A DNA stretch of 64,000 nt from the NCBI GenBank assembly GCA_012861695.1, contig JAAOOA010000143.1:62501-126500 (forward strand), in the 5' to 3' direction. This stretch comes from Trematomus loennbergii. Taxonomy: Eukaryota > Chordata > Actinopteri > Perciformes > Nototheniidae. Shown here one piece after another: positions 10,570-52,358 of the stretch. Made by a program: the position numbers and the translations under genes. The notes beneath the pieces were generated by a model. That model ran no database searches. It saw nothing but the letters and a program-made list of their open reading frames with translations, and was not told the origin of the DNA. Every line of letters begins with the position of its first letter. Positions within the stretch are counted from its first letter, which is position 1.

Positions 10570-13394
10570 TATGGCAAGCCATTCGAGTATTTATTCCATA
10601 TCCTTGATATCAGACGGCAGCTGCCTGCACTAGTTGGCTCTTTGATTTCACTTGTTAGATATATGGTCAAACTAGTGTGGCACTCTGCTTTACTAGTTAA
10701 ATAGTGATGTGTCAAAAAATGCACGAGTCAACATGTATGACTTTGAAACAATTCACTAGTTAACTAGTTGCACGTACATGTCAACTACAGTGGCGAGCCG
10801 TCAGGGCCCTCTAGGCCCCCTTTTTTTTTTTAAACATTAAAAAAAAAAAAAAAGATTTAAATATATATTTTTTTAATATTATTTTTGTTATATTTTTCAT
10901 TAGTTTTACCGAAAAAAAACTTGATTTAATAAAATAACATTTCCAAAGAAATAAATCCTTGGAATCTGCCTGTTCAGTCTCTGTTGAATGTGAAGGGTTA
11001 CATGAAAGAAGCTCGCCTGGCCCTCTCTGCGATTCACAGAGGGTTGCTATAGTAACTGAACGAGAGAGTAATGTCAAATGACAGTACAATTGACCAATCA
11101 TATCTTCCCTCTAAATGGGTGGGTTTTATTATCGCGGACTTTATGACGAGTTCCGCCCGCTGTGAAACTTTTCTTGTTTCCATAGCAACAACAACTTCCT
11201 GTCAACAGCGTGAACTCGCCTTCAAAATAAAAGCATGCCAAATTACACTTAAGACATACAACTGCAACGAAAGTAACAAACACAATGCAATATCATTTTC
11301 AATGTCAAAGAACACAAATTGGGTTCACAGGTGTTGTTTTGTGTGGTAGAGGGTCGCTGTCATTGATGCGTTTTGCACCCTGGCCGTTGTTTGATATTCC
11401 GCTGAAGTATACGCTGTGACGTAATAACTCTTTTTTTTTCTTTTTTTCGAGGGAAGGGGTGGGGGTCAGAGGGCCTAGGTATAAAGCTCACGGCTCGCCA
11501 CTGGTCAACTAGTTAGTCATTGTGTTGAACTAGAGAGAAGAAAACCACAACTAGTGGGCTGAAAAAGCCATACATGTTGAATCAACATCTAACTAGTTGC
11601 ATACAGTTGCTCACTAGTGCACAAAAAGCCAAACTAGTTGAAGGAAAGGCCTTACATGTAAGAAAAATGTGTAACATGTAAGGTCAAAGTCTAACATGTT
11701 CATAACAGAACCTGACTAGTGAGAAAAAATGCCCTCCACTAGTTAACTAGTAAGAAAAACATCTGTGTCACTAGTTTACTAGTGACTCCTCTAAGGCTCC
11801 ACTAGTTAACTAGTGAGATAAAGTGTGTGTAACTAGTTAACTAGTAAGGTACAAACAATTGTACTAGTGTATCTAGTGGACAATTTGGACCTCACTAGTT
11901 AACTAGTGCACATTTTGAGCCTCATAGTCAGCTTGTAAGACCAAAAGAGGCTTCAACTAGTTAACTAGTGCACATTTTGCCTTCACTAGTTAACGTGTAA
12001 GCTGCAATATGTATCCACTAGTTAACTAGTTGTCGTTCATATGGCCGACACGTTAACTAGTCAGCCATATGCAAATGAAGCAGGCGGGACCCAGATTCTG
12101 ATTGGTCAGTTCAGCTCTGTGAGGGAGAGCCTTAGGGGGCGTTCTCCTGCAACGTTTTTAGCAACGTCTCGAAGACGTGAGGTATCAGTCGGGTATTTAG
12201 TGCCTCCTGTTAACATATTGTCCGTGGGAAGTCAGTCAGTGTGTTTGGCCTAGAAAAATACATGTTTCTGTTTCTGCTTTGTTCCGCTTTGTGTGTGTTT
12301 TGTTGGTGCGAGTGTGCGTATGCTTGTGTGAGAACACCGGCACTCGACACACAAAAGTAGAGGAAGTGATCGTGGGACATTTTATCAGCGGTGCTCATGA
12401 AATGAATAAAGCAGAAACACTGGACAGATCTTAAAATCAGGATAACCATAGATCCGTATGATAAACAACCTCTCCATATTTTGCCTTAAAGACTCATATT
12501 TACAGAAGTCACGGCGATCTCTCAAAGCTGTGATCAGAAGAGGGTTATTCCTCTTTCTATCCATCACTAATGTCACTCTGTTATCACAAGCTATTCTAAT
12601 CCAAGCACCTTTCAAATTGCAGCTTAACAAAATGTTTTAAAGAGGATCTATATTCCTGTCTGCAGTCCTAAGGCAACTTTCTCATTTTAACAAAGTCTTC
12701 AATGTTCTTACCTAATTTGATAAACAGTCATATGATCATAATTACACAAATACTTTTGTTTTATATTTTTGTAATATGGTCACATGACTGTATTTTAAAA
12801 CACAGTGTATTTAAGCTCTTAAAGAAACTATTTGGGCTGGGTGGCGCTCTATAGCTTAGGGCCAATAGGAGACCTCGATGCCTTCTTTCCCCTCCTCCTC
12901 ATTAGCATTCTGTGCAACTAGTGCGACTAGTGCACATTTGGGATCCACTAGTACTACTAGTGAACATTTTGAGCCTCACTAGTTCACTAGTGGAATTTAA
13001 ATGTATCTCACTAGTTAACTAGTAAAGGGCAAAGGGTTCACTAGTTAACGTGTAGACATTTTGAGCCCCACTAGTTAACTAGTAAGGTCAAAAGAGGCGT
13101 CAACTAGTTAACTAGTCAACCTTTTGCCTTTACTAGTTAACTAGTGAGTGATCCTGGGTGCCACTAGTGCTGCTCCTGGCGTCACTAGTAAGGCTTATGT
13201 GCTAACTAGTCGGACAAAAGTGCCACTAGTTGCTGAAAAAGAGTGACTAGTGTAATGTTTTATTGAACTAGTAAAGCAGAGTGCCACACTAGTTAGACAA
13301 TATATCTAACAAGTGAAATCAAAGAGCCAACTAGTGCAGGCAGCTGCCGTCTGATATCAAGGATATGGAATAAATACTCAAATGGCTTGCCATA
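10570..13394. mobile_element. 2.8-kb long-TIR element filled with ACTAGT palindromes
   Basis: The ends are about 150-bp inverted repeats starting TATGGCAAGCCATTCGAGTA (10570) and ending with the complement at 13394. They share ATCAGACGGCAGCTGCCTGC and the following CACTAGTTGGCTCTTTGATT. A TA dinucleotide at each end could be a target duplication. The interior, excluding a nested hAT at 10788-11503 and a plainer block at 12060-12900, holds several dozen ACTAGT sites, many as the 14-base palindrome ACTAGTTAACTAGT spaced 25-45 bases apart. No transposase is encoded. The element sits in an intron of the exoc3l2-like gene. The family is not recognised. Confidence 0.8.
10788..11503 (+). mobile_element. 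hAT-type non-autonomous element, copy 1
   Basis: It is bounded by CAGTGGCGAGCCGTCAGGGC and, at the other end, CACGGCTCGCCACTG, with an exact 8-bp target duplication GTCAACTA at 10780-10787 and 11504-11511. Terminal CAG...CTG and 8-bp duplications are the hAT signature. The 716-bp body is AT-rich near one end and carries a 90-codon open frame shared with copy 2 (27792-28542, opposite orientation). It shows no recognisable domain, so I treat it as non-coding. It is inserted inside the ACTAGT element. Confidence 0.93.
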
Positions 13395-17052: not shown

Positions 17053-17763
17053 AATTGCGGTCTGTGTGTGTGCGGACTGTCACTCCTGATGATGTTTGTC
17101 AATTTAAAAGATCATTTTGCAAGTCAAAAAAAAAAAAAAGTGTGGTAAAACTGTGAAGTAACACATTTGTTTGTGTGAAACGCTCAATGAACTACATCTC
17201 TGGTCAACAACACACGTCACCAAGATGGCCGTCACTACTGTCTTGTCAACAAAACGATTGGCTACCCTCACTATCACCACAATGAAACACGTCCTGAAGA
17301 AAGTCATGCAAAGCTGCCTGCCTGCCTTCCTTTGATTCTCTCTGAACTGCCTGGTCGTTTTAATGTTTAATGTCAACCATTTGTGCAGATAGCATGAAGT
17401 AGAGAAGATCGCCGATGCTAGCGTTAGCGTTAGCATTTCTCCCCGGGCTTAAATGGTGTATTATAGAATGATCACACCGGTGACAGTACTCTTCAAAGGG
17501 TTCACGAAATGACTACTACTCTTACTGTTTAACATTTTGGGTTACTTCATGTTACTTCATGTTAAGGCTAATACAAATGACAAGGCTGTAATGCTAACTA
17601 ACGTGCTAGCTACTAGCTAGCTTGATCCAGACACTCCTGGTCCTTTCATCAGACGGGAAGCGAAAGAACGAGCAAGACCCATTGCTGGTATGATAACAAC
17701 CTGGTACTAAGCACACAGGCATCTTGTTAAAGTTATCTTATCCCTCTTAGGTGCCTTACAACA
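17053..17763. other. No gene recognised
   Basis: The stretch contains an A13 run at 17127-17140, GCTAGCGTTAGCGTTAGC at 17418-17435 and a CTAGCTACTAGCTAG patch near 17606. Minus-strand frames here have no recognisable domain. Confidence 0.5.
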
Positions 17764-17934
17764 ATGGACGTCCGCTCTCGGGAGCGTCGGAGTGGTGCGG
17801 TCACCCTAAGTGACAGACCTAAAGTATCCGGGATTCAGGCATCTTCCCTGGCTTGTACATTTTTGGTGATGCGCCCTGGAGATATCAGCCTATTTTTAAC
17901 AACTTTTCCCCGCTTTTCAAACATTTATTCCGGG

Positions 17935-18059
17935 GTTTTAGCCAGTCATTTTGCAAGAAATCATTTAACATTAACGGTCTCCTGAAAAAGCACATATTCT
18001 GTGCATTTTCAGGAGAGCGTCTATGTTAAATAATTTCGTGCAAAATGACTGTCTAAAAC
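17935..18059. repeat. 125-nt imperfect palindrome
   Basis: GTTTTAGCCAGTCATTTTGC at 17935 pairs with GCAAAATGACTGTCTAAAAC at 18059. Pairing continues through CATTTAACATT, TCTCCTGAAAA and GCACA to a loop around TATTC. About 62-nt arms carry roughly six mismatches. Confidence 0.9.
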
Positions 18060-19479
18060 TCTCTTCCAGACATTTAAAAATACTTTCCCCGACCATTTAA
18101 ACATTATTTCTGGGTGGTAAAGTGCAGTTAAGCGGCCTGGAGGTATTATACTATTTCAAACAACTTTTCCCCGCCTTTCAAAGACTTATTCCTGGGTACA
18201 AGTGTTATCTTTCCCCCCTGGGTGTGTGTGAGACAAGTGAAGTGAGTCAGCCTGCCAACAAGCAGCAGTGTGCTGTCATTTGAAACATGTTCCCCCACAG
18301 TTTAACACACTTTTACCTGTGTTTTGAGGCTCTTTCCTGGGTCAATGTGTCCTCTTTCTCCCCCCTGGGTGTGTGTGAGACAAGTGAAGTGAGTCAGCCT
18401 GCCAACAAGCAGCAGTGTGCTGTCATTTGAAACATGTTACCCCACAGTGTGACTATGCTGTAGCCACGTTTCGAGCACTCTTTCCTGGGTCGAAAAGACA
18501 TGTGCTGTAACCTGGTTCTCTCCCAGTACTGGGTACTAGTTAATGCCACTATCACCACCACATTTAAACCAGATGAAGTGGTAGTTATCCGGGGTGCTGC
18601 AGAGTCATTTTCAGGCTCCTCTCCACAATTGTCCCCCTAAAATGATTTTAAATCATTATTTTTGCATTTAATGCATTTATTCTATCATTTATATGGTTCC
18701 CCAACACAATGCACATAGTCTGGAGCTCACTGGGGTCCTGCATATAATTTAATCAGGCGTTTTAACACTTTTTCCCATGAAAATGATTTTTAATCACTAT
18801 CATGGGGCTATGAAAATAAAATTCCGGGTAATGCAGAGCACAAGTGCACCTTTTACTATTTAAATGTATTTGTATTATATATATTTGGGCTAGGTAGGGG
18901 ACCTCTCTGGGTGATTTAGTCAGTTTATGGATTTTTTCCCACAAATCCTGGATGATCCAGGCCGAATTTGGGTGCTCATAGGCGGCCTGCCAGGCGCCCC
19001 CACCCGTGGAAAGCAAAAAAAAGTGAAGAAAACGCTTAATTATATCTTAAAATAATCAAAAATGAAGTTTTGAAAAATTGTCAAATTTTTTCTAAGTGCC
19101 AACGGGAGTAGTGGCCAGGTGTTTGGCGCTTCGGGCCGATTTTTCCCCTTCTCCGATGGTTGGTACAACGGAGAAGGGGAAAAAGTCCCTGGGCTTCATT
19201 TCCACTTCTCTGTCAAAAAGATTCATCCATGTTTTCAGACTACCTTCCGCACGAAATCAGAAACCCAGTTTTTGGGTGGACTCAGAAAAAAACGGCTGTT
19301 GGAAATCATGGAAGAATGTATCCGCTCACCAAGCACTCTGAGTGGGCCTCATTTTGTGCCTCAAGACCCCCCAGCCTGGTTCTCCCAATACTTTAAGTTC
19401 GACATGGAGGAATGCGAGGGCACTTTTGCAGGTGACTCTACCCGATTATGAGGCACTATTTTGGGTTTTTTTACATTTT
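18060..19479. repeat. Degenerate duplicated leader of the recombinase element
   Basis: Phrases recur at irregular spacing: 'CCCCTGGGTGTGTGTGAGAC' at 18218 and 18362 with about 100 bases of shared sequence after each (AAGTGAAGTGAGTCAGCCTG), and TTTTCCCCGC / TTCCTGGGT motifs. The overall style (C-run followed by GGTTCT or GGGT, then TTTTCA) resembles the clean arrays downstream, suggesting older arrays. Open frames around 19096-19451 have no recognisable domain. Confidence 0.6.
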
Positions 19480-20290
19480 CCCGGTTCTCCAAATAGTTTA
19501 AGTGCGACATTTTGAGCCCTGGAGGAATGCGAGGGCACTTTCCCGGTGACTCTACCCGATTTGAGGCACTATTTTGGGGTATAATTTTTACATTTTGACC
19601 CCTTTCCCGGTTTTCACCAAAGTTGAGTTGGATGATTTCCCCATGGAGGAATGTCAGGGGAGTCCGCGGGGGACTCTTGCGGGGTCATGAGGCACTATTT
19701 TGGGGTACAATTTTTCCATTTTGACCCCTTTCCCCGGTTCTCACCAAAGTTGAGTTGGATGATTTCCACCATGGAGGAATGTCAGGGGAGTCCGCGGGGG
19801 ACTCTTGCGGGGTCATGAGGCACTATTTTGGGGTACAATTTTTCCATTTTGACCCCTTTCCCCGGTTCTCACCAAAGTTGAGTTGGATGATTTCCCCATG
19901 GAGGAATGTCAGGGGAGTCCGCGGGGGACTCTTGCGGGGTCATGAGGCACTATTTTGGGGTACAATTTTTCCATTTTGACCCCTTTCCCCGGTTCTCACC
20001 AAAGTTGAGTTGGATGATTTCACCATGGAGGAATGTCAGGGGAGTCCGCGGGGGACTCTGCGGGGTCATGAGGCACTGTTTTGGGGTATAATTTTTCATT
20101 TTGACCCCTTTCCCCGGTTCTCACCAAAGTTGAGTTGGATGATTTCGACCATGGAGGAATGTCAGGGGAGTCCGCGGGGGACTCCTGCGGGGTCATGAGG
20201 CACTGTTTTGGGGTATAATTTTTACATTTTGACCCCTTTCCCCGGTTCTCACCAAAGTTGAGTGTGATGATTGCTGAGTCATGATGCACT
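19480..20290 (+). repeat. 127-bp tandem array
   Basis: Six copies at 125-128 bp spacing (TCACCAAAGTTGAGTTGGAT at 19614, 19741, 19869, 19996, 20121, 20249). Each contains ATGGAGGAATGTCAGGGGAG, GTCATGAGGCACT and ATTTTGACCCCTTTCC. The first two half-units (19380-19560) are more diverged. Confidence 0.96.
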
Positions 20291-20299
20291 TTTTTGGGG

Positions 20300-20745
20300 G
20301 TACCTCATTATCAACACGGACTAGAGATGTCTCGGAGATGGCTCGGACCCCACACCCTGGTTCTATGTAACCCTGGAGGAATGTCACATGAGTCGACAGG
20401 GGACTGCTGCTGGCTAATGAAGGACTATTTTGGGGTACATTTCCCCCATTATCAACACGGACTAGAGATGTCTCGGAGATGGCTCGGACCCCACACCCTG
20501 GTTCTATGTAACCCTGGAGGAATGTCACATGAGTCGACAGGGGACTGCTGCTGGCTAATGAAGGACTATTTTGGGGTACATTTCCCCCATTATCAACATG
20601 GACTAGAGATGTCTCGGAGATGGCTCGGACCCCACACCCTGGTTCTATGTAACCCTGGAGGAATGTCACATGAGTCGACAGGGGACTGCTGCTGGCTAAT
20701 GAAGCACTATTTCCGGGTACTTTTTTTTCATTTTCACCCAAATTT
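20300..20745 (+). repeat. 141-bp tandem array (47-codon period)
   Basis: Three nearly identical 141-bp copies begin at TCAACACGGACTAGAGATGT (20311, 20452, 20593). Because 141 is divisible by three, both strands keep long periodic frames, but no start, domain or codon bias supports a protein. Phrases TGGAGGAATGTCACATGAGT and AGGACTATTTTGGGGTACAT echo the preceding 127-bp unit, so the two arrays share ancestry. Confidence 0.95.
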
Positions 20746-21172
20746 CCCTGGATGAAATATTTTTTAGTTTTTTTTGTTTTTAGCCCAGTTTTGGCCACAG
20801 CGTTGCCTGGAGGATAGGACCGAGATATGACAGACTCTCTGGCCGCCTCACAAGTCACTATTGTCGGACACTTTCTTTGCTTTACCCCGGTTCTATCACT
20901 CTTTCCTCCTTTGACCATACAACCCGTTTCCTGCTGGGGTGGTGCCTGGTTCCGGGGTACCCCAAACCCTCTCATGGTCGGGGCACCATGTATGGATGCA
21001 TCGGACCCAATGTTGCCATCACCAGCCCCGCGTTGGTGCGGAAGTGGGACCATCTGACCCGGTGGTAACCCAATACTTCCCTTCGTCCATGCACCATGAA
21101 TTGATGCATCGGACCCAGTGTCGCAACCACCGCTCACGCTAACGCATATAAACGGAGAACTATAACATCATT
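20746..21172 (+). promoter_or_regulatory. Presumed upstream region of the recombinase gene
   Basis: About 430 bases between the last array and the start codon region. ACGCATATAAACGGAG near 21142-21157 contains a TATAAA-like box 15-35 bases before the gene's first Met codons. Two copies of a CACCATGNATTGATGCATCGGACCCA-like phrase (20986 and 21091) flank it. Promoter function is inferred only. Confidence 0.35.
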
Positions 21173-23666
21173 TTGATCAAATTCATTATGTGTGTTTCAG
21201 TAAGGATGTCATCTGAATGCCCGGTGTGCAGACTCTTCTATCTGGCATTGAACAAACACCTTAAGCACAAGCATGCAGTGCGGAACTTGGAGGAGAGGGG
21301 AATCCTCCTGAAAATAGCCAGTGGAAGGATAAATGTTCGGACCAAACCCTGTCCCATCGCTGGGTGTTCGTACGCTGGGAAGAGACTGGACCGTCATGTA
21401 AAACATGACCACCCTGAGTTGTCCCGACATGAGGCACAGCAGGTCATGGCAAGGCTGAAGCATAGTGTGGCACTGCAGTTGCTCCATGACCTCCGTGAGA
21501 CTAACCCCATCATTGGAATGGCTACATCATTGGATATAGACAATGAGGGGGAATACCCCGGGCACCCTCCACCCTTCTCCCCACATACCGAGTGTGACAA
21601 CGAGGACTGCAGGCAGGTGATGCTGGAAAATGTGGCATTGAGGGCTCAGAAGGATGCCCTCAATGATGAGGTGAAGACCCTGCGCTCCAGGCTGAAAAAG
21701 GAGCTAAAACCCAGGAAGCAGAGTGCTGCTGTTCTTGAGGAAGAGGACGAATGTATACGATTTAAGGGCCTGGCAATCCCAAGTACCTCCGGCATAAACA
21801 CAGTAGCCTCAGGCAGCAATACCCCTGTGAAGACCCCGGTGAAGACTGTCATGCAGTCCCCAGTAACCTCCGGTAGCGGGACCCCTGTGAAGACCCCGGT
21901 GAAGACTGTCATGCATTCCCCAGTAACCTCCGGTAGCGGGACCCCTGTGAAGACCCCGGTGAAGACTGTCATGCATTCCCCAGTAACCTCCGGTAGCGGG
22001 ACCCCTGTGAAGACCCGGTGAAGACTGTCATGCATTCAGTAACCTCCGGTAGCGGACCCTGTGAGGAGCCCGTGAAGACTGTCATGCTTGCAGTAGCCTC
22101 CGGTGGAAGAGACCGGTAAGAACCCTGTGAAGAGCCAGTGAAGACTGTAATTACAGTAGCCTCCGGTAGCGAGACCCTGTGAAGCCCAGTGAAACTGTCA
22201 TATTACAGTTTCCTCCGGTAGCGAGACCCTGTGAAGACCCGGTGGAAACTGTCATGTTTGCAGTAGCCTCCGGTAGCGAGACCCCTGTGAAGACCCCGGT
22301 GGAAACTGTCATGTTTGCAGTAGCCTCCGGTAGCGAGACCCCTGTGAAGACCCCGGTGGAAACTGTCATGTTTGCAGTAGCCTCCGGTAGCGAGACCCCT
22401 GTATGCCGGAAGACCCGTGCCTCTAAGCTGGCTAATGACTTGCCCTCTCCCTCAAATTACTGGTCCACTGGGTGTGGACGGGGGAATACCATGCGTGAAA
22501 TCACGTTGCCTAGAAGCATGGAGGCGTACCTTCAGACATACTTGGATCATTGTTTGGGTGTCGCTCCGACAGTAAAACAGAAAGACAATGTTGTGTCGAA
22601 GATCAGCCGGATAAAGAACTTCATAGTATACATGGCCCATGGTGTTAACCGCCTGTCAGACTGGCTGTTCCTAAGAAACATGAAGATGATCCGTGGCTGG
22701 AGCGAGTATATTGTAAAGCCGGGCCGGGCAGTCACAACATCAGAGTTCTTCCTGAAGAATGTGCACCAGTTCATGGGGTACATGTCTGAGTCAAAGCCCC
22801 GGGGGTGCAAGCTCACCCAGTCTGATATGACCCACATAATGAGAGAGGTGAAAGCCAACATGAAACACTTGAATAAGGCAGTCACTCTACATCAGTTTAA
22901 GGTGAAGAGGAACAAACTGGATCGTCTGCCGAGCCAGGCGGAGCTTCTCGCCGCCATGGCGGCCGCTGAGAAGCGCATCCCGGAGCTCCTCGACCTGATG
23001 GCCGGCACGCCGACCTCAACCACCCAGAAGCTTCTCTATGGCTATCTCACCCTCCATTGGAGCCTCCTGTATGGCCACCGTACGGGCGTGTACGCAAACA
23101 TGAAAAACAGTGAGGTCTTAGAGGCAGCCATAAGGGGAACTGCTGAGGGCTACATCATCCATGTGCAGGATCACAAGACGGCCAAGACATATGGCGAAGC
23201 ACAGCTGGCGCTTACAGTAGAGGAGTTTAGCTGGGTCATGCGGTGGATGGGGATTAAAAAGGTATTGCTGGGTCCTCAGAATGAATTCTTCCTTTTCACA
23301 AGGGGGAATCGGGCCTCCAAGAACCTGAACGCTCACTTGAAGAGGGCATGGGCTGATGCTGGGCTAGAAACAGCCGTCACCTTCACAATCCTGCGCACTG
23401 CCCTGGCTGACAATATCAAGCATCACCAAGATCCAGAAAGCCGGTCGATTCTCGCCAGGTTTATGTGTCACGACGTAACCACGGCGGACCGGTTCTACGC
23501 GAATGCGCCGGGAATAAAGGAGGCATTGAGAATCCGCTCCATGTTCAGGGCGTCATCAGATGCGGCAGCAGCTGCATCATCATCAGAAGGATGTCTACCG
23601 CTGTCAGATGGGGAGACCTCCGAAGAGGGCTGCTATAACAGTACTGCTCCATCATCTTCATCCTGA
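21173..23666 (+). CDS. Zinc-finger / tyrosine recombinase protein (Crypton-like), frame broken in linker
   Basis: The first half (21173-22021; the likelier start is the Met before SSECPVCRLFY near 21206) has two C2H2-like fingers: CPVCRLFYLALNKHLKHKH and CPIAGCSYAGKRLDRHVKHD. A coiled coil (RQVMLENVALRAQKDALNDE) and a 20-residue repeat (GSGTPVKTPVKTVMHSPVTS) follow. The frame is lost at about 22012, where a CCCC run has CCC, and resumes by 22179. The second half ends in a recombinase domain. In the 22179 frame R301 (GHRTGVY), K333 (DHKTAK), R406 (ILRTAL), H431 (CHDVT) and Y440 (RFYA) are spaced 32, 73, 25 and 9, close to Cre and lambda integrase. Thr403 replaces the usual His/Lys of HxxR. A Ser-rich tail ends at 23666. 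The likely role is cutting and joining the element's DNA in the nucleus. Confidence 0.8.
21820..22400 (+). repeat. 60-bp and 54-57-bp coding repeats in the recombinase linker
   Basis: Perfect 60-bp units start near 21821, 21881 and 21941, encoding a Thr/Pro/Val-rich 20-residue block with possible proline-directed phosphorylation sites (TPVKTPVKT). After 22020 the units become ragged, with base losses in nearly every copy. They then reform as 57-bp units (VMFAVASGSETPVKTPVET) up to 22400. Confidence 0.93.
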
Positions 23667-23880
23667 TGGGTCATTGGAGCGGCAGCAGCAGCGGAAGCGG
23701 AAGCGGGAGGGAAAGAGGCCAATGAAGTCGGGACCGGGGCTGGTTGACACTCCTGATGATGGGGCAGGGGCCGTGGACTCAACCTGTTTGCCCTGGTGCA
23801 CCGTAAGAATTAGACGCCTTTGGTCCCCTGAATCCCGCTAAACATTGTGAATATGTATACCGTGTATATAATTATTATTA
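23667..23880 (+). other. 3' flank of the recombinase gene
   Basis: The region just after the stop is GC-rich (CGGCAGCAGCAGCGGAAGCG) and then turns AT-rich (TATATAATTATTATTATAAT). An overlapping + frame (23560-23841) is rich in Arg and Lys, but I cannot support it as coding. Confidence 0.4.
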
Positions 23881-24500
23881 TAATCCTGTGTATACATTTT
23901 GTAAATAGTACAATATCTCCAGGGCGCATAACTGCACTTTACAAGCCAGGGAAGGTGCCAGAATCCTGGGCATACATTTTGTTAATAGTGCAACACCTCC
24001 AGGGCGCATAACTGCACTTTACAAGCCAGGGAAGGTGCCAGAATCCTGGGCATACATTTTGTTAATAGTGCAACACCTCCAGGGCGCATAACTGCATTTA
24101 CAAGCCAGGGAAGGTGCCAGAATCCTGGGCATACATTTTGTTAATAGTGCAACACCTCCAGGGCGCATAACTGCACTTTACAAGCCAGGGAAGGTGCCAG
24201 AATCCTGGGCATACATTTTGTTAATAGTGCAACACCTCCAGGGCGCATAACTGCACTTTACAAGCCAGGGAAGGTGCCAGAATCCTGGGCATACATTTTG
24301 TTAATAGTGCAACACCTCCAGGGCGCATAACTGCATTTACAAGCCAGGGAAGGTGCCAGAATCCTGGGCATACATTTTGTTAATAGTGCAACACCTCCAG
24401 GGCGCATAACTGCACTTTACAAGCCAGGGAAGGTGCCAGAATCCTGGGCATACATTTTGTTAATAGTGCAACACCTCCAGGGCGCATAACTGCACTTTAA
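23881..24500 (+). repeat. 80-bp array with 80/79/80 higher-order pattern
   Basis: Eight copies of CTGCACTTTACAAGCCAGGG-containing units at spacings 80, 79, 80, 80, 79 and 80. The 79-bp unit (CTGCATTTACAAG, one base shorter) recurs every third copy. A related last unit recurs alone at 26370-26505. Confidence 0.95.
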
Positions 24501-24840
24501 AACGTAGGTTAAGAAATTTAGTAGTACTGTTATAGCAGCAGTAGTACGTGTAAATAGTTGATGTTTTAGTCTGTGTGTACTGTCATTTTTGTTACTGCAA
24601 CGTGTAAATAGTTGATGTTTTAGGGTGTGTGGTTGATGTTTTAGGGTGTGTGTTCAAATAAAATTAAAAATTAAAAAAAAACAATAACCTTGATGGTTAC
24701 CAGGGGCAGATAAAGTGCCACTTTCCATCAGCACCGGGGTGCTGAACCCTGTGATGAGCGCTCAAGTGTTGGCGGAGGAGGTGTAAGCCAGAGGAGGGTG
24801 AACAAAAGTTAAAGTGTTTGAACCTCCAGCCCAGAAGGGG
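24501..24840 (+). other. Spacer between arrays with A-rich run
   Basis: GTGTAAATAGTTGATGTTTTAG is present twice and GGTTGATGTTTTAGGGTGTG follows. AATAAAATTAAAAATTAAAA at 24658 could serve as a poly(A) signal for the recombinase transcript. CACCAGGGGCA-type phrases from 24700 are the first diverged copy of the next array. Confidence 0.5.
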
Positions 24841-25290
24841 GGGGTGTGCCGTGAAGAAGGCCGACTATGGATGCTGATGGGCGGACATAGAAGCACCACA
24901 AAATCCACCCCCTTTAGGGTCACCAGGGGCACGAGAATACCCTCAACAGAAGGGGTGGTGGTGCCGTGAAGAAGGCCGACTATGGATGCTGATGGGCGGA
25001 CATAGAAGCACCACAAAATCCACCCCCTTTAGGGTCACCAGGGGCACGAGAATACCCTCAACAGAAGGGGTGGTGGTGCCGTGAAGAAGGCCGACTATGG
25101 ATGCTGATGGGCGGACATAGAAGCACCACAAAATCCACCCCCTTTAGGGTCACCAGGGGCACGAGAATACCCTCAACAGAAGGGGTGGTGGTGCGTGAAG
25201 AAGGCCGACTATGGATGCTGATGGGCGGACATAGAAGCACCACAAAATCCACCCCCTTTAGGGTCACCAGGGGCACGAGGTTCTGGTGGG
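24841..25290 (+). repeat. 115-bp tandem array
   Basis: Four copies (GTGAAGAAGGCCGACTATGG at 24851, 24966, 25081, 25195) with AGAAGCACCACAAAATCCAC and GGGTCACCAGGGGCACGAG. One copy lacks a C before GTGAAG. Confidence 0.95.
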
Positions 25291-25379
25291 TGTGAATACC
25301 TGTGTTTAGTCCGTGGGGGAGTGCTTAAGTGGGGGCCCGGGGACTCAGGTGTGCAAGGTTATGGAGGTCCCACTGTTAT

Positions 25380-26200
25380 GGGGACATGCTGGAGGTCATG
25401 AGTCCGTCCTTCGGGGCTCTGTGAGCGGGCACAGACAGGTGATTTTCCCCTGGTCTCTCCTGGAGCTGTGAAATGCACAGAGTCCCACTGTTAGGGCCAT
25501 CCTGGAGGTCTCTAGTCCGTCTTTCGGCTCTGTGAGCGGGCAAAGAGGTGATTTTCCCCTGGTCTCTGCTGGAGCTGTGAAATGCACAGAGTCCCACTGT
25601 TAGGGATCCATCCTGGAGGTCATGAGTCCGTCTTTCGGTGCTCTGTGAGCGGGCAAAAAGAGGTGATTTTCCCCTGGTCTCTGCTGGAGCTGTGAAATGC
25701 ACAGAGTCCCCTGTTAGGGAGCCATCCTGGAGGTCTAGTCCGTACTTTCGGTGCTCTGTGAGCGGGCAGAGAGAGGTGATTTCCCCCTGGTCTCTCCTGG
25801 AGCTGTGAAATGCACAGAGTCCCACTGTTAGGGAGCCATCCTGGAGGTCTATGAGTCCGTCTTGTGCTCTGTGAGCGGGCAGAGAGAGGTGATTTTCCCC
25901 TGGTCTCTCCTGGAGCTGTGAAATGCACAGAGTCCCACTGTTAGGGAGCCATCCTGAGGTCTCTAGTCCGTCTTCGGTGCTCTGTGAGCGGGCAGAGAGA
26001 GGTGATTTCCCCCTGGTCTCTCCTGGAGCTGTGAAATGCACAGAGTCCCACTGTTAGGGAGCCATCCTGGAGGTCATGAGTCCGTACTTTGGGGGTCTGT
26101 GAGCGGGCACAGACAGGTGATTTTCCCCTGGTCTCTCCTGGAGCTGTGAAATAACCAGAGTCCCACTGTTAGGGACTTCTGCTGGAGGTCTCCTGCATTT
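25380..26200 (+). repeat. 113-bp tandem array
   Basis: Seven to eight copies with CTGGAGCTGTGAAATGCACA, GTGAGCGGGCAGAGAGAGGT and TTTTCCCCTGGTCTCTCCTG at 109-115 bp spacing. Single-base gains and losses occur in most copies, so the minus-strand periodic frames change between copies and are not genes. Confidence 0.95.
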
Positions 26201-26505
26201 AAACAGATTCACCAGTTTCTAACAAGACTTTAGCCCTGATCAGAGCCCTGTTTTCTGGGTAAGACAGCGAGGTGCTGTACCCTGGGTGTCTGGCTCTCTG
26301 AGACCCTGCTAAAAGCAGTGTCTCTGCTGCCTGCATTTAAACAGATTCCACCAGTTTCTAACAAGACTTTACAACTGCACTTTACAAGCCAGGGAAGGGC
26401 CAGAATCCTGGGTATACATTTTGTAAATAGTGCAATACCTCCAAGGCGCATAACTGCACTTTACAAGCCAGGGAAGATGCCTGAATCCTGGGTAAACATT
26501 GTTTA
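26201..26505 (+). repeat. Duplicated CATTTAAACAGATTCACCAG segment and final 80-bp unit
   Basis: GCATTTAAACAGATTC-ACCAGTTTCTAACAAGAC occurs at 26197 and 26332. The second copy runs straight into CTGCACTTTACAAGCCAGGG units (26375 and 26454), returning to the 80-bp family. Confidence 0.85.
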
Positions 26506-26697
26506 ATTGTTTAAGTGTTTTTAAATGTATGGAAAGTGTTTTGTCTCTTTCAAACTCTCCCGTCATTGGCCAGATACATGGGGACTATTTTATATTCACT
26601 ATGACCGTTACTATTCCAGTGAGACGAAGTACGTCCAGTGACGGGAGTGATCCCATGTTAATTTTGTCCAAAAACCAGAGCATTCCCTCATCTTAGC

Positions 26698-27624: not shown

Positions 27625-28850
27625 ATGGGTTTTCCATGTCCTATTCATAATAGAGTAATCATTGCAATATTTAATAACAAAAGGTATACCAAAGCTTGGG
27701 CCTCCTCCAAGGAGGGAGTGGTCCAGTTTTTAGATATTAGACAAATAGAAGTGGATGAATATGTCAGAGCTCTGAGTAATATTATCCAAGTCAGTGGCGA
27801 GCCGTGAGCTTTATACCTAGGCCCTCTGACCCCCACCCCTTCCCTCGAAAAAAGAAAAAAAAAGAGTTATTACGTCACAGCGTATACTTCAGCGGAATAT
27901 CAAAACAACGGCCAGGGTGCAAAACGCATCAATGACAGCGACCCTCTACCACACAAAACAACACCTGTGAACCCAATTTGTGTTCTTTGACATTGAAAAT
28001 GATATTGCATTGTGTTTGTTACTTTCGTTGCAGTTGTATGTCTTAAGTGTAATTTGGCATGCTTTTATTTTGAAGGCGAGTTCACGCTGTTGACAGGAAG
28101 TTGTTGTTGCTATGGAAACAAGAAAAGTTTCACAGCGGGCGGAACTTGTCATAATGTCCGCGATAATAAAACCCACCATTTAGAGGGAAGATATGATTGG
28201 TCAATTGTACTGTCATTTGACATTACTCTCTCGTTCAGTTACTATAGCAACCCTCTGTGAATTGCAGAGAGGGCCAGACGAGCTTCTTTCATGTAACCCC
28301 TACATTCAAACAGAGAATGAACACAGCAGATTCGAAGGATTTATTTCTTTGGAAATGTTATTTTAAATACAATTAAATCAAGTTTTTTTTCGGTAAAACT
28401 AATGAAAAAATATAACAAAAATATATTAAAAAAATTATATTTAAAAAAAATATTATTTTTTTTTAATGTTTTTAAATATTATTTTTTTGGAATATCTTAG
28501 GCCCTCACAGAGGGCCTAGAGGGCCCTGACGGCTCGCCACTGATCCAAGTTTTGTCTACACAGGCTAGGAAAAACCAACAGACACACCAGAAGAGACTCC
28601 TGTTCGGCCAGGTGATTGGGTGAGGGGTGAAAGTTCACAAAACACAGTGGGCTGATCCCCGGTGGTCGGAACCGTGACAAGTTGTACGAACTTCACACAT
28701 GCTCCGGTTTAAAGTAAAGAAAAAAGGAGCAAATTGGCACCACCTCACACATTGTCAACCTTCACTGGCAACTTCCAGAGAAGTATTGGAAGCTAGGACT
28801 GATTTGGCAGAGCTGGAACAAAACAATAAATAGAAATAAGATTAAGATAG
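27625..28850 (+). pseudogene. Retrovirus-like integrase C-terminal fragment, split by hAT copy 2
   Basis: Before the hAT insertion the frame reads MGFPCPIHNRVIIAIF... to EYVRALSNIIQ. After the insertion, sequence at 28551-28840 includes RPGDWVR, a WADPRW motif, VVRTSHM and NWHHLTHCQPS. The PGDWV / W-DPRW / TSH / HHLTHC order is that of the C-terminal domain of retroviral-type integrases, the end of pol. The fragment has an internal frame slip and a stop, so it cannot be functional. No protease, RT or envelope was recognised nearby. It is an old genomic copy in which the flanking 8-bp duplication shows the hAT landed later. Confidence 0.6.
27792..28542 (-). mobile_element. hAT-type non-autonomous element, copy 2
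   Basis: It has the same family ends as copy 1 (CAGTGGCGAGCCGTGAGC and CTGACGGCTCGCCACTG) in the opposite orientation, with target duplication ATCCAAGT at 27784-27791 and 28543-28550. The 751-bp length versus 716 bp for copy 1 is due mostly to A/T runs near one end. The shared interior makes these two copies recent relatives. Confidence 0.93.
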
Positions 28851-28984: not shown

Positions 28985-31900
28985 CATTATTTAAATTCTG
29001 TAACTGACACAACCATGGATAAAATAGAGATTATGTCAAGAACAAAGCCAAGCAATTGTGGGGTCCCCTACAGCGGTCACCTTGTCGCAGACAATCTGCT
29101 CGACAAAATATGTTTGTCTTTTTTGTTTGCCTGCGATGATGGTACTTCAGGACTGCTTCTTAAGCTCAAATCACACTCTCGCAGACTTTTCCGGTGATTC
29201 TAAAGTAGATGACAATGTGTGTGTGTCGATTAAGAGGAAAAGATGCCTGTTTTTGTTATTTACTGTCAGGAAATGTTCAACCTAACCCTGGTCCGCCCAG
29301 TAGTAGTAGTCAGATCGCTACTCCTGCTGATTTTAAAGCTAGGTCTGGGTTGGGTTTCATCCACTTGAATGTGCGCAGTCTGTTAGGTAAACTAGATTTT
29401 GTCCGCATTTGGGCAAGCTCGACTGACGCTGACGTCATTGTGTTATCAGAAACATGGCTAAATAAAACTATTTTGGCCTCTGACATATCCTTAAATGGTA
29501 TAATGTGTATCGTACCGACCGGCCTAATAAAGGTGGTGGAGTTGCCATTTATGTTAAGAATAAGTTCAGTGTAACCACATTGATCTCCAAATCTGTCAGT
29601 AAGCAATTCGAATTTTTAGCCTTAAATATAGAAGTGGCAAAGGGGCAACAAGTCATGGTGGTGGGTGTTACAGACCCCCCTCAGCTGTCAAGGACTCCTT
29701 GTCTTCACTAGCAAAACTTTTATCACAACTAGACTACAAGGAAATAGTGCTACTTGGAGATTTTAACTGGGACTGGTTAACTGCAGTATCAGAGGATTTT
29801 AAAAACCTTTGTATCTCTCTGAATGTTACTCAGATTGTTGACAGTCCTACTCGCCCTAACGTTAAGTCCCCTAATAAATCATCCCTAATTGATCTCATTC
29901 TAACTAATGTTCCCTATAAATACCCATCTGTGGGAGTATTTGCAAATGATGTGAGTGACCACTGTGTTGTAGCCACAATTAGGGACACTAAGGTCCAAAA
30001 GGTTAAACCCGTATTATTATTAAGAGACACATAAAACATTTTGTGGAGCAGGGTTTTGTTCATGATCTGTTTGGGTTTGATTGGGGAAAAATCGATCTGT
30101 GTGCTGATGTTGAAACTGCATGGTCTTATTTTTATCTTGGTTTTATGGAAATTATAGATAGACATGCACCCCTACGTACTTTTAGAGTAAAGGGACGAGA
30201 CAATCCTTGGTTTTCTGCTGAACTGTCCAGTCTCCTACATGAGAGAAACAAGGCCTGGGCAAAGGCTAGGAAATCAGGCTCAGAGGTAGAATGGCTGCGT
30301 TTTAGGCAACTAAGAAATAGCTTCACTTCACAGGTCAAAAGTGCTAAGTCGAAGTACTATTTGTCAGTTACTACAGAAAACCTAAATAATCCTAGGAAAT
30401 TTTGGAAAGCCATAAAATCGCTATCCACCGGTGAGATCCGAAATGAGCTACCTCCGTGCATTACCACAGCATCTGGCTCTATATCGGACAGGGCTACTAT
30501 GTTAAATTGTTTTAATGAGCATTTTGTGTCCTGCGGTTCTATGTTTGATTCTGTGACTAACTCTGCTTCTGTGAACACCACAGTCGTGACTCTGAACAAT
30601 GTGGTCTGGAAAACCCTTTCAGTTTTACTCCTTTTACTGTTGATGTTGTTCGTGAAGCTTTAACCAAGTTAGATCCTAAGAAACCGGCCGGCCCGGACAA
30701 CGTGGAACCTTTCTTTTTAAAGATAGCTGCAGATTTTATTGCTCCACCTCTCACTACTCTTTTTAACCTCTCCCTCAGCACAAACACAATTCCAAAAGTG
30801 TGAAGTCAGCGTATGTCCTGCCTTTGCTGAAAGGAGGGGAGGCAACTGTTTTAAATAATATAGGCCCATCTCTAAATTGTCAGTTCTGGCTAAGGTTCTT
30901 GAACGCCTAGTGAGTGAACAGGTAAAGGTGTTTTTATGTACAAATGACATCCTGTCTAAACATCAGTCAGGCTTCAGAAAGCAACATAGCACCATCACTG
31001 CCACAATGAAAGTGGTGAATGATGTGGCAGTATTTTAGATAATAAGCAGAGTTGTGCAGCTCTATTTATTGACCTTTCCAAAGCGTTTGATACCGTCGAT
31101 CATCGCATCTTAAAGCAGAGGCTACTCAGTATTGGCTTATCCAGCCATGCAGTGGGGTGGTTTGTGAACTACCTCTCTGAAAGGTCCCAATGTGTTCACT
31201 TTGATGGGCTGTCTTCTGAGTGGTTAAACATTACTAATGGTGTTCCTCAAGGTTCTGTTTTAGGTCCACTTTTATTCTCCATCTACATCAATAGTTTAGG
31301 TGAAAATGTCGATGGAGCAACCTTACATTTTTATGCGGACGATACCGTTATGTACTGTGCAGGTCCCTCCATTAAGGAGGCTGTGTTAATTGCAAGCTGC
31401 TTTTAACATTATTCAGACTCAGCTCTCTGAACTAAATGTTGAGAAAACCAAGGTAATGCTCTTTTCTAAAGCTAAAAAGACTCCAGAGACTGCTTTGGAT
31501 ATTGTGACTATGCAAGGACAAGTACTCCAAGTGGTTAGCTGTTATAAATACCTTGGTATCTGGCTTGATGATTGTCTTACTTTTAAACTTCAGTCACTAA
31601 TCTGCTTAAAAAGCTGAGGGTTAGATAGGTTTCTTTTTCAGAAACAAGTCCTGTTTCTCTTTTGAAGCCAGGAAAAGGCTAGTCACTGTGACCTTTTTAC
31701 CTGTGCTAGACTATGGTGATTTGATCTACATGAATGCACCTGCCCATTGCCTGGAAAGGTTAGATGCCGCCTATCACAGTGCTCTGAGATTTGTTACTAA
31801 CTGTAAAGCACTTACTCATCACTGTACCCTGTATGCCAAGGCAGGTCTGCCTTCACTTACTGTCGGAGGCTCAGTCATTGGTACATATTCATCTACAAAG

Positions 31901-37733: not shown

Positions 37734-39813
37734 AAGATAATATTAAAGTATAAAAATAAAGGCATTAATTAGGGCTGCATAATGTCTCCCATTTTAATGG
37801 TGATTAGATTTTTAAATGCTAACACTTAACAGTTTGTTCTGACTGTGTGTTTCCTGTTTCCTGCAGACGTCCAGCAGCTGGTGAAGGTTAAAGAAGAGGT
37901 TCTCCCTGACCAGCAGGAGTGGAGCACCAGTCTGGACCAGGAGGACCCAGAGCCCCCCCCCATACATTAAGCAGGAACAGGAGGAACTCAGGATCAATCA
38001 GGAGGGAGAGCCGCTTCAGGAGCTGGAGGAGGCTGATATCACCAAGTCCCCTTTCACTCCTGACCCTGTGGAGAGTGAAGATGATAAAGAGAAACTTCAG
38101 TCTTCACAGCCTCATCAAAGACAAACTGAACACATGGAAACAGAAGCTGATGAAGATGACTGTCGAGGACCAGAACCAGCCAGGAACTCAGATCCAGAGA
38201 GCAGTTCACAACCAAAGACTGAGGATGACACTGCTGAACCTGACACTGAAGACTCTTCTGAACCTGACACTGAAGACAGTGCTGATTGGAAGGAGACCAG
38301 AGAACCTGCATCAGGCTCAAACTCACTGAAAAATAGACATGAATCTGTCAGTGATCCACGACGTAGTGCTGAAACGAAACCATTCAGCTGCTCAGTCTGT
38401 GAGAAAGCTTTTTCACTGAGTGGAAGTTTAAAGAGACACATGAGAATCCACACAGGAGAGAAAGCACACAGCTGCTCAGTCTGTGAGAACGTTTTTTCAC
38501 AGAGTGGAAATTTAAAGGAACACATGAGAGTCCACACAGGAGAGAAACCATACAAATGCTCAGTCTGTACGACAGCTTTTTCACAGAGTGGACATTTAAA
38601 GGAACACATGAAAATCCACACAGGAGAGAAATCACACAGCTGCTCAGTCTGTAAGAAAGCTTTTTCACAGAATATAGATTTAAAGATACACATGAGAGTC
38701 CACACAGGAGAGAATCCATACATATGCTCAGTCTGTACGACAGCTTTTTCACAGAGAAACTACACAGCTGCAATGTTTGTGACCAAATATTTAAATGGCG
38801 TAATCTTTTCAATAAACACAAATGTGTTGGTCGTCAGTCCTCACAGCTTAATGAAATTCAAACTGAGGATAACAGAGAGGCAGAGCCTCCAATCAGCAGC
38901 TCAGCTGAACATATGGAAACAGAAGCTGATGGAGAGGACAATGATTAAGTCTTATGACAGTTCACACATGAGAAAAATCTTCCTGACTGGATTAACATTG
39001 TTGCACAACATTCATATAAGACTTAAATGAACTCCATCTTTATCAACATAAGTGGACAATATGTTTAATGTTTTTGCGATACTGATTTTCTGATTTATAA
39101 CTGACTGTTGATGAACCATTTTATTTTGGATTGAGGGCTCCAAGTCTCCATATAGAGGTATAGGAGGATTTGATGTATTGTTCTTTATTTCTAAATGTTT
39201 TTGTATCAATGCTATCCTGCTAATGAGCCCTGTTTTACATAAATGTACCTGTTATCTGATTGTTTTTGCTTCTGTAACTGTAAGGGAACACATTTGCCTT
39301 TTTTGTATCCTGATGACCTAATGCCGTTACATGTAATACGTTACTCCCTAAGCCTGATTTCACCCACTTGCAACCGTTTCACTAATAATCACAAATGTTC
39401 ATTTCTTTGACCGCTTGACTCAACAACTTTCTTGTTTAATAATCGTTACATCTCCTCAGGACCAATATCCCGTGTCCTGTCCTTCACCTGCTGATCACCC
39501 ACTGCTCATTAAAGGTCGACTGACCTTTACAATGGACCAGCTAGTCTTAGTGTCTTAATGCAAACGTTTTCTAAAGTGATGCTAGACCAAAAACGTGCTG
39601 TTGGATTGTGTGCTCTCTGCAGGACGGTGCCATGTCCAATATTTTTATGTTTTGTTTGATTAAATCTACTGAAATGAGCATTCAATGACTAAATTATTCT
39701 TTATTACTGTCATTAAATCATTGGTTTGCATTGCCCAAATCTGCTCCAAATGCATGCAAACATCTCGCTTTATCCATACTCCTGCAGTTGTATTGTTCTG
39801 GATTCATAGTGAG
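37725..39813 (+). repeat. Left arm of inverted duplication (zinc-finger exon 2 and 3' flank)
   Basis: From GGGACTAAGAAAGATAATAT at 37725 to GGATTCATAGTGAGGTG at 39813, the sequence matches the reverse complement of 42180-46424. The L2 LINE at 42617-44568 is extra in the right arm. The pairing covers part of an intron, the zinc-finger exon and about 900 bases of 3' flank. Confidence 0.9.
37867..38948 (+). pseudogene. C2H2 zinc-finger gene, exon 2 copy (left arm)
   Basis: After an acceptor (TTCCTGCAG) the exon reads [20 protein letters not shown], the usual linker of fish C2H2 genes. A run of nine C at 37953 (eight in the right-arm copy) shifts the frame. The acidic part ([20 protein letters not shown]) and fingers resume in the other frame: [85 protein letters not shown] fifth finger is joined out of frame to the terminal [15 protein letters not shown] finger by a 40-nt deletion. 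No first exon (MSKVQM type) was found upstream. Likely a dead partial duplicate, if the C-run is real. Confidence 0.8.
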
Positions 39814-42616: not shown

Positions 42617-44568
42617 AGGCAAGGCAAGGCAAGTTTATTTATATAGCACCTTTCAACACAAGGCAATTCAAAGTGCTTTACAAAAATGGCATTTAAAATC
42701 ATTAAAAATAAAAGATAAAAAATAACATTAAAAGAAAAAATACATGGATAAAAGTTAAAAGTTACAGTGCAGTTTAAGATGTGAATAGTTCAATTAAAAG
42801 CAGCGGCAAAAAGAAAAGTCTTCAGCCTGGATTTAAAAGTAGTAAGAGTTGCAGCGGACCTGCAGGTTTCTGGGAGTTTGTTCCAGATATTGGAGCATAA
42901 TAACTGAATGCTGCTTTACCCTGTTTAGTTCTGACTCGAGGGAGAGAAAGCTGACCAGTCCCTGAAGACCTGAGAGTTCTGGATGGTTCATAATTTAGCA
43001 GTAGGTCAGACATGTATTTTGGGCCTAAACCATTCAAAGCTTTATAAACCAGCAACAATATTTTTGAAATCTATTCTTTGACACACAGGAAGCCAGTGTA
43101 AGGACTTCAGAACAGGAGTGATGTGATCCACTTTCTTCGTGTTAGTGAGGACTCGAGCAGCGGCGTTCTGAATTAGCTGCAGCTTTCTAATAGATTTTTT
43201 AGTGAGGCTTGTAAAGACACCATTGCAGTAGTCGAGTCTACTGAAGATAAAAGCATGGACAAGTTTTTCCAAATCCTGCTGTGACATTAGTCTTTTAATC
43301 CTAGATATGTTCTTTAGGTGATAGTAGGCTGATTTAGTAACTGTTTTAATGTGACTGTTGAAACGTCCATGACTACACCTAGATTTCTGGCTTTATCTGT
43401 TGTTTTGAACATTGCAGACTGAAGCTCAGCGCTAACTTTTATACGTTCTGCCTTGGCTCCAAAAACCATTACCTCAGTTTTATCTTTGTTTAATTGGAGA
43501 AATTTCTGACACATCCAGTCATTGATTTGTTCAATGCACTTACTCAGTGTTTGAATTGGAGCATAATCTCCTGGTGAAATTGTTACGTAAATTTGTGTCT
43601 CATTATCTGAGCCAGTGGTAGCATGTAGAGGTTAAAGAGAAGAGGCCCAAGATGGAGCCTTGAGGTACCCCACATGTCATATTTGTCAACTCAGATGTGT
43701 ATTTACCTATAGAAACAAAGTTTTTTCTGTCCTTTAAGTAGGACTCAAACCAATTTAGAACTGTTGCCGAAAGTCCCACCCAGTTTTCTAGTCGGTCTAG
43801 TAATATGTTGTGGTCAACAGTGTCAAACGCAGCACTGAGATCTAATAATACTAACACTGAAGTTCTGCCACTGTCTGTGTTTAAGTGGATGTCATTGAAG
43901 ACCTTTACAAGAGCAGTCTCAGTGCTGTGGTTTGGACGAAATCCTGACTGGAACACATCCAAAGAGTTATTTAAATGCAAGAAGTTACTTAACTGTTGAA
44001 ATACAACTTTTTCAATGATTTTACCTAGAAATGGCAGGTTTGATATTGGCCTGTAATTGTTCATTACTGAAGCATCTAGATTATTCTTTTTTAAGAGCGG
44101 TTTAATGACTGCAGTTTTCAGGGCCTCTGGAAAAATACCTGAGTGAAGAGATGTGTTTACTATATGAAGTAGATCTGAGGCCATGCAAGGAAAAACATCT
44201 TTGAAAAATCCTGTTGGAATAATATCAAGGCAGCAGGAGGAGGATTTCAGAAGTTGAATAATGTCCTCTAAGTTTTTACCATTAATCTGATGGAATTGTG
44301 TCATGGTGTTTGAATTGATATTAGGTGGACATAGGGACAACAATTTGCTGTACCTGATGCAGAGGCACTGACTGCTTGTCTAATTTTCTGAATTTTGTCA
44401 GTGAAGAAGGAGGCAAAATCATTGCACGCCCTGGTGGATAGAATTCAGAGGCTACTGACACTGGGGGGTTTGTTAGTCTGTCGACGGTAGCAAACAAGGC
44501 ACGTGCGTTGTTTTTGTTTTTGGTAATGATGTCAGAGAAGAAAGACTGTCGTGCGTTTTTCAATTCCA
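42617..44568 (-). mobile_element. 5'-truncated L2 LINE with RT active-site deletion
   Basis: The element is flanked by GGTTGCA target duplications (42610-42616 and 44569-44575), and its 3' end is an AAGGC-repeat tail. Reading minus: NLELKNARQSFFSDIITKNK, then [20 protein letters not shown] and the RT segments [60 protein letters not shown] and [12 protein letters not shown]. The YADD catalytic box is absent: LPLAQIM is followed within a codon by TQIYVTISPGDY. The C-terminal part (LDYCNGVFTSL, KSLHWLPVCQRIDFK) follows in other frames. It cannot move by itself. Confidence 0.92.
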
Positions 44569-46290: not shown

Positions 46291-46424
46291 CTGCAGGAAA
46301 CACAGTCAGAACAAACTGTTAAGTATTAGCATTTAAAAATCTAATCACCATTAAAATGGGAGACATTATGCAGCCCTAATTAATGCCTTTATTTTTATAC
46401 TTTAATATTATCTTTCTTAGTCCC

Positions 46425-51695: not shown

Positions 51696-52319
51696 CTCAC
51701 CGGAGACTATTGGACTTCACTGAGTAACGACAGTTATCTCGGTGTCACAGCGCATTATTTTGACCCACAGTGGGAACTTCAGTCTCATGCCCTGACTGTT
51801 ATGAAGACAGAGGAGCGGCATTTCGCAGACAACTGCGCGGAGCACTTTATGCAGGTAGCCAGACAGTGGGACATTGTACCAAAAGTCAGCACACTCACCA
51901 CGGATAGCGCACGCAACATGATTGCAGCGTCCAGGCAGCTCCCGTTCCAGCATATGCCTTGCGCTGCATATAGTCTACAACGATCCATCACAGTGTCTCT
52001 CCAGGACAGTCCGTTTAACGGCGCATTGGCAAAATGCAGAAAGGTAGTGGGTCACTTTAAGCATAGCCCGCCAAACGCAGCAGAGCTCGAACAAAAGCAA
52101 ATTGAAAGTGGTCAAAAGAAAGAGTCACTCACACAGGACGTGACAACCAGATGGAACAGTACACTGGAGATGATCAGACGTATTCTGAGAAATCAACAAC
52201 CTTTGAGAGATGTGCTGGCCCTACAAACAACCAACGTTACCATGCCAACAACAGCTGAGCTGGCTAAACTGCAGCAGTTGGAGACAGTGCTGGAGCCCTG
52301 CAGGTACTTTATTAATTAG

Positions 52320-52358
<39 letters not shown>

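Follow-up and report, generated by a model that had tools for sequence, protein, structure and literature searches.

A probable Crypton-type DNA transposon present in many near-identical copies in the genome of the fish Trematomus loennbergii

A reading frame with the residues of a tyrosine recombinase (YR) in the genome of Trematomus loennbergii raises the question of whether it is a domesticated host gene, a fragment of a retrotransposon, or the enzyme of a DNA transposon, and how it would move. The window analyzed here comprises 64,000 nucleotides (contig JAAOOA010000143.1, positions 62,501 to 126,500, forward strand), and all coordinates refer to it. Our analysis indicated that the gene lies in an 8.95-kb mobile element and that the window copy is frame-broken, two points unseen in the original prediction. 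The element is very probably one copy, itself probably dead, of a young multi-copy Crypton-type DNA transposon moved by YR site-specific recombination, where "Crypton-type" denotes a mode of action and not an assignment based on a YR tree.

The YR-encoding frame occupies positions 22179-23666 of the plus strand. The YR fold with catalytic spacing first proposed from the letters alone was borne out by AlphaFold modeling, as the model of the YR piece matches the structures of XerA, XerH, and Cre, and the first 27 rows of a Foldseek search against the PDB are all YRs. An earlier model made from 13 sequences gave no Foldseek match below an E value of 0.001, its best being Cre (3.8e-3). The 50 rows shown in the VIA structure comparison are YRs, topoisomerases, or SroF, YopR, and MrpR, which we take to be phage regulators of YR-like fold. 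Foldseek against viral models matched integrases and the nudivirus VLF-1, as expected of a YR. Sequence identity in the structural alignments to known YRs is 8-18%. Searches by sequence gave weak evidence for a YR in Pfam (best E values, 0.0043-0.0058; below the cut-off for the window), XerD in one of the 23 family members in NCBIfam (E value, 0.093), nothing relevant in PHROGs, and no match in the PDB, where the family profile produced only a chance hit to Rsc1 (E value, 0.65). The original prediction had looked to profile searches as well as structure prediction; the Pfam YR match stayed sub-threshold for the window, and it was the predicted structure that revealed the fold.

The five candidate catalytic residues named at the outset (R301, K333, R406, H431, and Y440) were confirmed in the frame that starts at 22179 and are mostly conserved in the fish family. 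Counted in the modeled piece (22410-23663), they are R224, K256, R329, H354, and Y363, located as follows (fractions refer to rows of the family alignment):

23079 to 23081, plus strand: Arg I, model R224; 19 of 23 rows
23175 to 23177, plus strand: Lys, model K256; 21 of 21 covered rows
23394 to 23396, plus strand: Arg II, model R329, in T-x-x-R, not H-x-x-R; 16 of 20 covered rows
23469 to 23471, plus strand: His (H/W position), model H354; 19 of 19 covered rows
23496 to 23498, plus strand: nucleophile Tyr, model Y363; 15 of 17 covered rows

All five occur together in 14 of the 23 rows, the remainder being partial, cut short, or changed. The threonine remarked on earlier at the HxxR histidine recurs in 16 of 20 covered family members (Asn in 2, Met in 1, Ile in 1); since this position varies in the wider tyrosine recombinase superfamily, threonine does not exclude membership. 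VIA alignments end with model residue 359 facing Cre 320, lambda 338, Tn1549 375, and XerH 340, and extrapolation by 4 residues presumably places Y363 on the catalytic tyrosines of these four enzymes; the entry title for the Tn1549 structure carries Y379F. Model residues 354-361 fall below a pLDDT of 50, forming a low-confidence stretch around Y363. On the strength of the modeled fold and the conserved residues, the frame at 22179-23666 encodes a tyrosine recombinase with predicted catalysis, and the enzyme of the element family may be catalytically active at present.

The gene is divided between two open reading frames (ORFs) in different frames, with a coding minisatellite between them:

21206 to 22021, plus strand: N-terminal part of the recombinase ORF, with fingers, a coiled-coil-like stretch (by eye), and the start of the repeat linker; ends at the first frame break
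21218 to 21274, plus strand: C2H2-like finger 1, C-x2-C-x9-H-x4-H; Cys and His invariant in the 9 proteins aligned (C11, C14, H24, and H29 in P0001 numbering)
21350 to 21412, plus strand: C2H2-like finger 2, C-x4-C-x9-H-x4-H; missing from P0003
21801 to 22402, plus strand: 60-bp coding minisatellite of about 10 units, encoding repeats of about 20 residues; the window copy loses frame here
22179 to 23666, plus strand: ORF with the YR domain, core-binding and catalytic; model residues from about 31 to 399 correspond to about 22500-23606

The two fingers and repeat linker proposed initially hold up in the wider family, in which the Cys and His residues of finger 1 are invariant among the aligned proteins and homologues run through in one frame. 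Thus, P0009, P0010, and P0011 (844, 854, and 801 aa) join fingers, linker, and YR in a single frame and begin at the window's ORF start (21206) or 18 bases upstream; the window is 98.5% identical to P0010 over 478 residues. Fingers, linker, and YR share one frame in only 10 of 20 T. loennbergii copies, and two of the other ten (L011 and L021) contain unread bases. Because of its frame breaks and a variant right end (CTCATC), the window copy is probably dead, judging from its letters, with sequence errors in the repeats being possible.

Protein searches found homologues in Brachyistius, Scophthalmus, Melanotaenia, Fundulus, Gymnodraco, Pseudochaenichthys, Chaenocephalus, Pungitius, Lates, Perca, and Kryptolebias (genus names as given by the sources). 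Four of these 11 genera were confirmed as Percomorphaceae by look-up, and the remaining seven presumably belong there too. An alpha-tectorin-like protein of Pseudochaenichthys (P0014) was also matched (E value, 5.6e-5; 15% covered). These searches rely on shared 5-residue words, and in two of them scoring was limited to the candidates with the most such words, which could have left distant relatives unseen. Two long Fundulus relatives, P0006 and P0008, lack Arg II and the catalytic Tyr and are candidates for decay or domestication. Two scans of IMG/VR confirmed no viral relative.

The relatives and copies that the original prediction suggested looking for thus exist, in other fish and in the host genome itself. 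A search of the T. loennbergii assembly (1.208 Gb; 3,566 contigs) returned 1,499 first-look candidates, of which 100 were scored; all 100 were about 100% identical over 417-418 residues, with no stops, so the genome holds at least 100 copies. Across 20 copies, 3 positions vary within the 1,251 bp of the YR stretch; of the 18 copies aligned over the finger segment (613 bp), counting that of the window, 17 match the window sequence exactly. Since the 20 compared copies were taken from the 100 best YR matches, this near-identity is partly selected and the true diversity of the family must be higher; L026, for instance, carries a second copy at 98.6%. Judged by its letters, the element family is young and multi-copy in this genome.

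The limits of the element were set from 20 copies with flanks (20 of the 100 listed, the window's own included), their extensions, and two further copies. Homology among the compared copies stops at the same bases, running from CCTCTTAGG to GCATTCC-CTTATC, which places the gene in an 8,950-bp element with seven minisatellite arrays. The six arrays outside the gene and the other landmarks are as follows:

17737 to 17742, plus strand: left-junction core CTTATC; fits YTNNTC and is target-derived by analogy with empty sites
17743 to 26692, plus strand: whole element, CCTCTTAGG to GCATTCC plus CTCATC; ends common to copies with unrelated flanks
18217 to 18515, plus strand: 147-bp minisatellite; a variant unit holds the inner left end in other copies
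19148 to 19153, plus strand: interior CTTCTC, followed by CGATGG; uninterrupted in the window copy, a self-insertion junction in L011
19562 to 20272, plus strand: 127-bp minisatellite
20306 to 20724, plus strand: 141-bp minisatellite
23882 to 24499, plus strand: 80-bp minisatellite
24832 to 25279, plus strand: 115-bp minisatellite
25367 to 26175, plus strand: 113-bp minisatellite
26687 to 26692, plus strand: right-terminal 6-mer of the element; CTCATC in the window copy, CTTATC in most copies

Eight copies read at both ends measure 8,485-10,292 bp, their lengths differing because of the minisatellite arrays and inner left ends. The best left/right matches over 200 bp, sought as terminal inverted or direct repeats, were not above shuffles. 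Pfam was run on 10 of the 15 ORFs of at least 80 aa inside the element, namely the two gene ORFs and eight more, and the YR gave the only convincing domain. Each of the five remaining ORFs overlaps with the gene or with a minisatellite. A match to MLVIN_C on the ORF at 20294-20755 (E value, 4.8e-6) was below the cut-off, with no stretch passing alone, and was rejected as a minisatellite-derived artefact. No gene besides the recombinase was recognised within the element, and, in keeping with the initial remark that none is near, no reverse transcriptase was matched in the 10 ORFs.

Outside its ends, the element is flanked by a 685-bp inverted repeat pair (10832-11503 and 27792-28471; 95.5% identical). 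Elsewhere in the window, ORF translations revealed C2H2 zinc-finger ORFs with TGEK-type linkers on opposite strands (38068-39030 and 45003-46303), two ORFs resembling a hAT-type transposase by eye (51801-53166), and, also by eye and outside the element, LINE endonuclease/reverse transcriptase-like fragments (30043-30663, 43603-44343, and 54695-57262).

The junctions suggested how the element chooses its targets. The 18 left ends fall into 13 distinct contexts, one of them a tandem joint, and each of the other 12 ends in YTNNTC (CTTATC in 4, TTACTC in 3, CTTCTC in 3, CTGCTC in 1, and TTCCTC in 1). Because TC belongs to the search probe, significance was tested on YT only: in the window, YT lies four bases upstream of 595 of 3,594 TC dinucleotides (16.6%), from which the chance of 12 in 12 computes to about 4e-10. 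On the right, GCATTCC-CTTATC is exact in 13 of 18 ends; L012, L014, L019, and L024 lack one or two bases of the C/T run, and the window copy is the only one of the 18 with C for T (CTCATC). L023, which the right-end probe missed, likewise terminates in CTTATC. These alignments point to a rule whereby insertion occurs after YTNNTC, the target's word being retained at the left junction and the element's own CTTATC at the right; at the four left junctions reading CTTATC, the word could stem from target or element. No microsatellites were seen by eye in the 12 left contexts and 16 non-tandem right flanks, and Rfam gave no RNA-gene match in the five target loci tested.

Both junctions of one copy are known only for site A, where empty and occupied states can be compared. 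Of 12 loci retrieved for the flank repeat, 11 carry the empty site, GACTGAATACC-CTTCTC-TAAGCAC, one of them with a base change immediately past it; the remaining locus is the occupied site from which the query was taken. In L012, the left half is joined to the left end of the element and the right end to TAAGCAC, with no duplication or loss beyond the shared TC; L014 and L021 have the same right flank. The site A repeat (L042-L052, position 1501 or its reverse) is dispersed, with 756 first-look candidates, and is filled in three fetched element copies. Site B is the element's own interior, CTTCTC^CGATGG, with the left junction in L011 and the right junction in L019 beside a diverged version. 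When L019 was extended with L036 (position 10652), its right flank proved to be such a diverged version of the element interior, so an older related element seems present in the genome. Site C, TTCCTC^CACACTG in the 147-bp repeat unit, is known from its left junction only, as the inner left end in L009, L010, L012, L020, and L024. These five copies, whose outer left flanks differ, share a composite form in which a second, inner left end follows the 147-bp repeats, and this form may itself have moved, because L012 also has the outer flanks of site A.

In two of 18 cases (L010 and L013), the right end runs straight into a left end, a head-to-tail joint as a circle would have. The tandem pair L013/L014 lies on C2 just before 19,777,792 and has the TAAGCAC repeat as its right flank, so its left flank is expected to be GACTGAATACCCTTCTC. 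Two right flanks recur, TAAGCAC three times and AGGGGCAC twice. L054 (C26) and L056 (C37) have the right flank AGGGGCACAGGCTCC in common, a second target used at least 2 times.

Head-to-tail joints and self-insertions appear to fit a circular YR intermediate, and we propose the following course. The recombinase would join the ends of the element into a circle with the joint GCATTCC-CTTATC-CCTCTTAGG, with the zinc fingers and coiled coil at its N-terminus presumably aiding DNA binding and multimerisation and the repeat linker perhaps having a role of its own. It would then recombine the circle joint with a genomic YTNNTC word, leaving the target word at the left, the element's CTTATC at the right, and no target duplication or loss. 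Because a conservative reaction of this kind cannot alone account for a rise in copy number, an additional process would be needed, possibly re-insertion during replication or the use of replicated or multimeric circles.

A fragment of a DIRS/Ngaro retrotransposon deserves consideration, because such elements make up 2.1% of the zebrafish genome against 0.9% for Cryptons, as given in the accessible part of one survey (PMC9341512). The absence of a reverse transcriptase match in 10 of the 15 element ORFs, together with sharp ends without repeats above chance, makes this extremely improbable. Just as improbable for this locus is a single-copy host gene that has domesticated a YR domain, an option the original prediction had left beside a Crypton-like lineage. 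A fish genome, zinc fingers, one long ORF, and the Fundulus relatives that lost Arg II and Tyr would suit domestication; at least 100 near-identical copies, with differing flanks and empty sites where these were read, refute it here, and the Crypton-like half is the one that stands. The DUF3504 match, lost catalytic residues, and single locus that mark domesticated Crypton genes of the DUF3504 kind are not features of our element. Segmental or satellite-like amplification instead of YR transposition could draw on the minisatellite-rich element, the two head-to-tail joints, and the two recurring right flanks, yet the left and right flanks, which differ between copies, each begin at one fixed base, the TAAGCAC site was read empty 11 times and also filled, and self-insertion junctions exist, so we consider it very unlikely. 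Equally slight is the prospect that 17743-26692 is merely a piece of a larger viral or giant mobile element: the integrase and VLF-1 matches would agree with it, but these are expected of any YR, and sharp ends on both sides, two IMG/VR scans with no relative confirmed, and the lack of another recognised gene speak against it.

The remaining question is which Cryptons the element resembles. In the available portions of Kojima and Jurka (PMC3212892), direct repeats of 4-6 bp are described for fungal Cryptons, no terminal repeats are reported for Cryptons A and I of animals, most animal hosts have few copies, medaka holds more than 2,700 autonomous and non-autonomous copies 59-98% identical to consensus, and the circular intermediate of known Cryptons is likewise a proposal. 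A curation guide, as far as available, names a short, copy-constant direct repeat as the distinguishing Crypton feature and describes copy number as generally low (PMC8969392), and the accessible part of PMC8869645 cites CryptonV from cnidarians, with some families target-specific and inserting in microsatellites. Our element is like Cryptons (F, S, and A/I) in having a YR as its sole transposition enzyme, no reverse transcriptase, no inverted terminal repeats, a proposed circle, and a short direct repeat (6 bp here) similar across copies, CTTATC at the right and YTNNTC at the left; high copy number is shared with the medaka Cryptons. It is unlike them in its size of about 8.5-10.3 kb with several minisatellites, its C2H2-like fingers and repeat linker, and its threonine at HxxR; the copies read here are near-identical, unlike those of medaka, and a short terminal direct repeat is present, unlike in the animal Cryptons as reported. 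Sequence-specific target choice is shared with CryptonV, compared by description and not by protein, although the dispersed YTNNTC differs from the microsatellites used by some CryptonV families. The Cre, XerA/XerH, lambda, and Tn1549 integrases are alike in fold, catalytic spacing, and recombination across a short core, and unlike in lacking threonine at HxxR and in that our element keeps the target word on one side only. Tn1549/Tn916-like elements likewise leave different short words at their two junctions. DIRS/Ngaro elements also insert through a YR without target duplication; they differ from our element, in which neither reverse transcriptase nor RNase H was found in the 10 of 15 ORFs scanned and long terminal repeats are absent.

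It is a real possibility, though we lean against it, that the element belongs to a catalogued Crypton group such as CryptonA of medaka or CryptonV, in which case little but the host would be new; this is not exclusive of the Crypton-type reading preferred here. Cryptons are known in fish from medaka and zebrafish, some CryptonV families are target-specific, and one Crypton hallmark is a short direct repeat that stays similar from copy to copy. Against such membership stand the reported lack of terminal repeats in Cryptons A/I and the cnidarian, partly microsatellite-targeted nature of CryptonV, both as far as the sources were accessible, as well as the absence of DUF3504 from the Pfam matches of the 23 family members. 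The GCR1_C domain C-terminal to the YR in CryptonF likewise gave no Pfam match at an E value of 0.1 or less in these 23 members. A literature search by title and abstract, with subscription papers, preprints, Repbase, and Dfam outside its scope, found no paper on this element family; we describe it as a Crypton-type element of a lineage for which we located no publication, which combines two zinc fingers with a repeat linker and in which no reverse transcriptase was matched. A bolder and somewhat less likely version, offered tentatively, is a separate vertebrate lineage of YR DNA transposons outside the named Crypton groups that works with a Thr-for-His recombinase and multiplied explosively and very recently in a single fish genome by way of extrachromosomal circles, perhaps multimeric ones; such circles would account for both the head-to-tail joints and the hundreds of copies from a conservative recombinase.

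How YR DNA transposons move in animals has mostly been deduced from their fungal and bacterial counterparts, and locating their ends is difficult, according to the available parts of PMC3212892 and PMC8969392. A fish with many copies is no novelty, because medaka already has thousands of Crypton copies; what sets the present case apart is that the copies are nearly identical, with intact ORFs and junctions that could be resolved. The likeness of the copies, their sharply defined ends, and pairs of empty and occupied sites allowed a recombination rule to be read from sequence alone, making this a young and unusually readable case of a little-studied kind of animal transposon. It offers a vertebrate element in which the roles of the fingers, the repeat linker, and the T-x-x-R site become testable and in which one can ask how a cut-and-paste recombinase multiplies. 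If active, its short target word and self-contained recombinase would make it a candidate tool for vertebrate cells.
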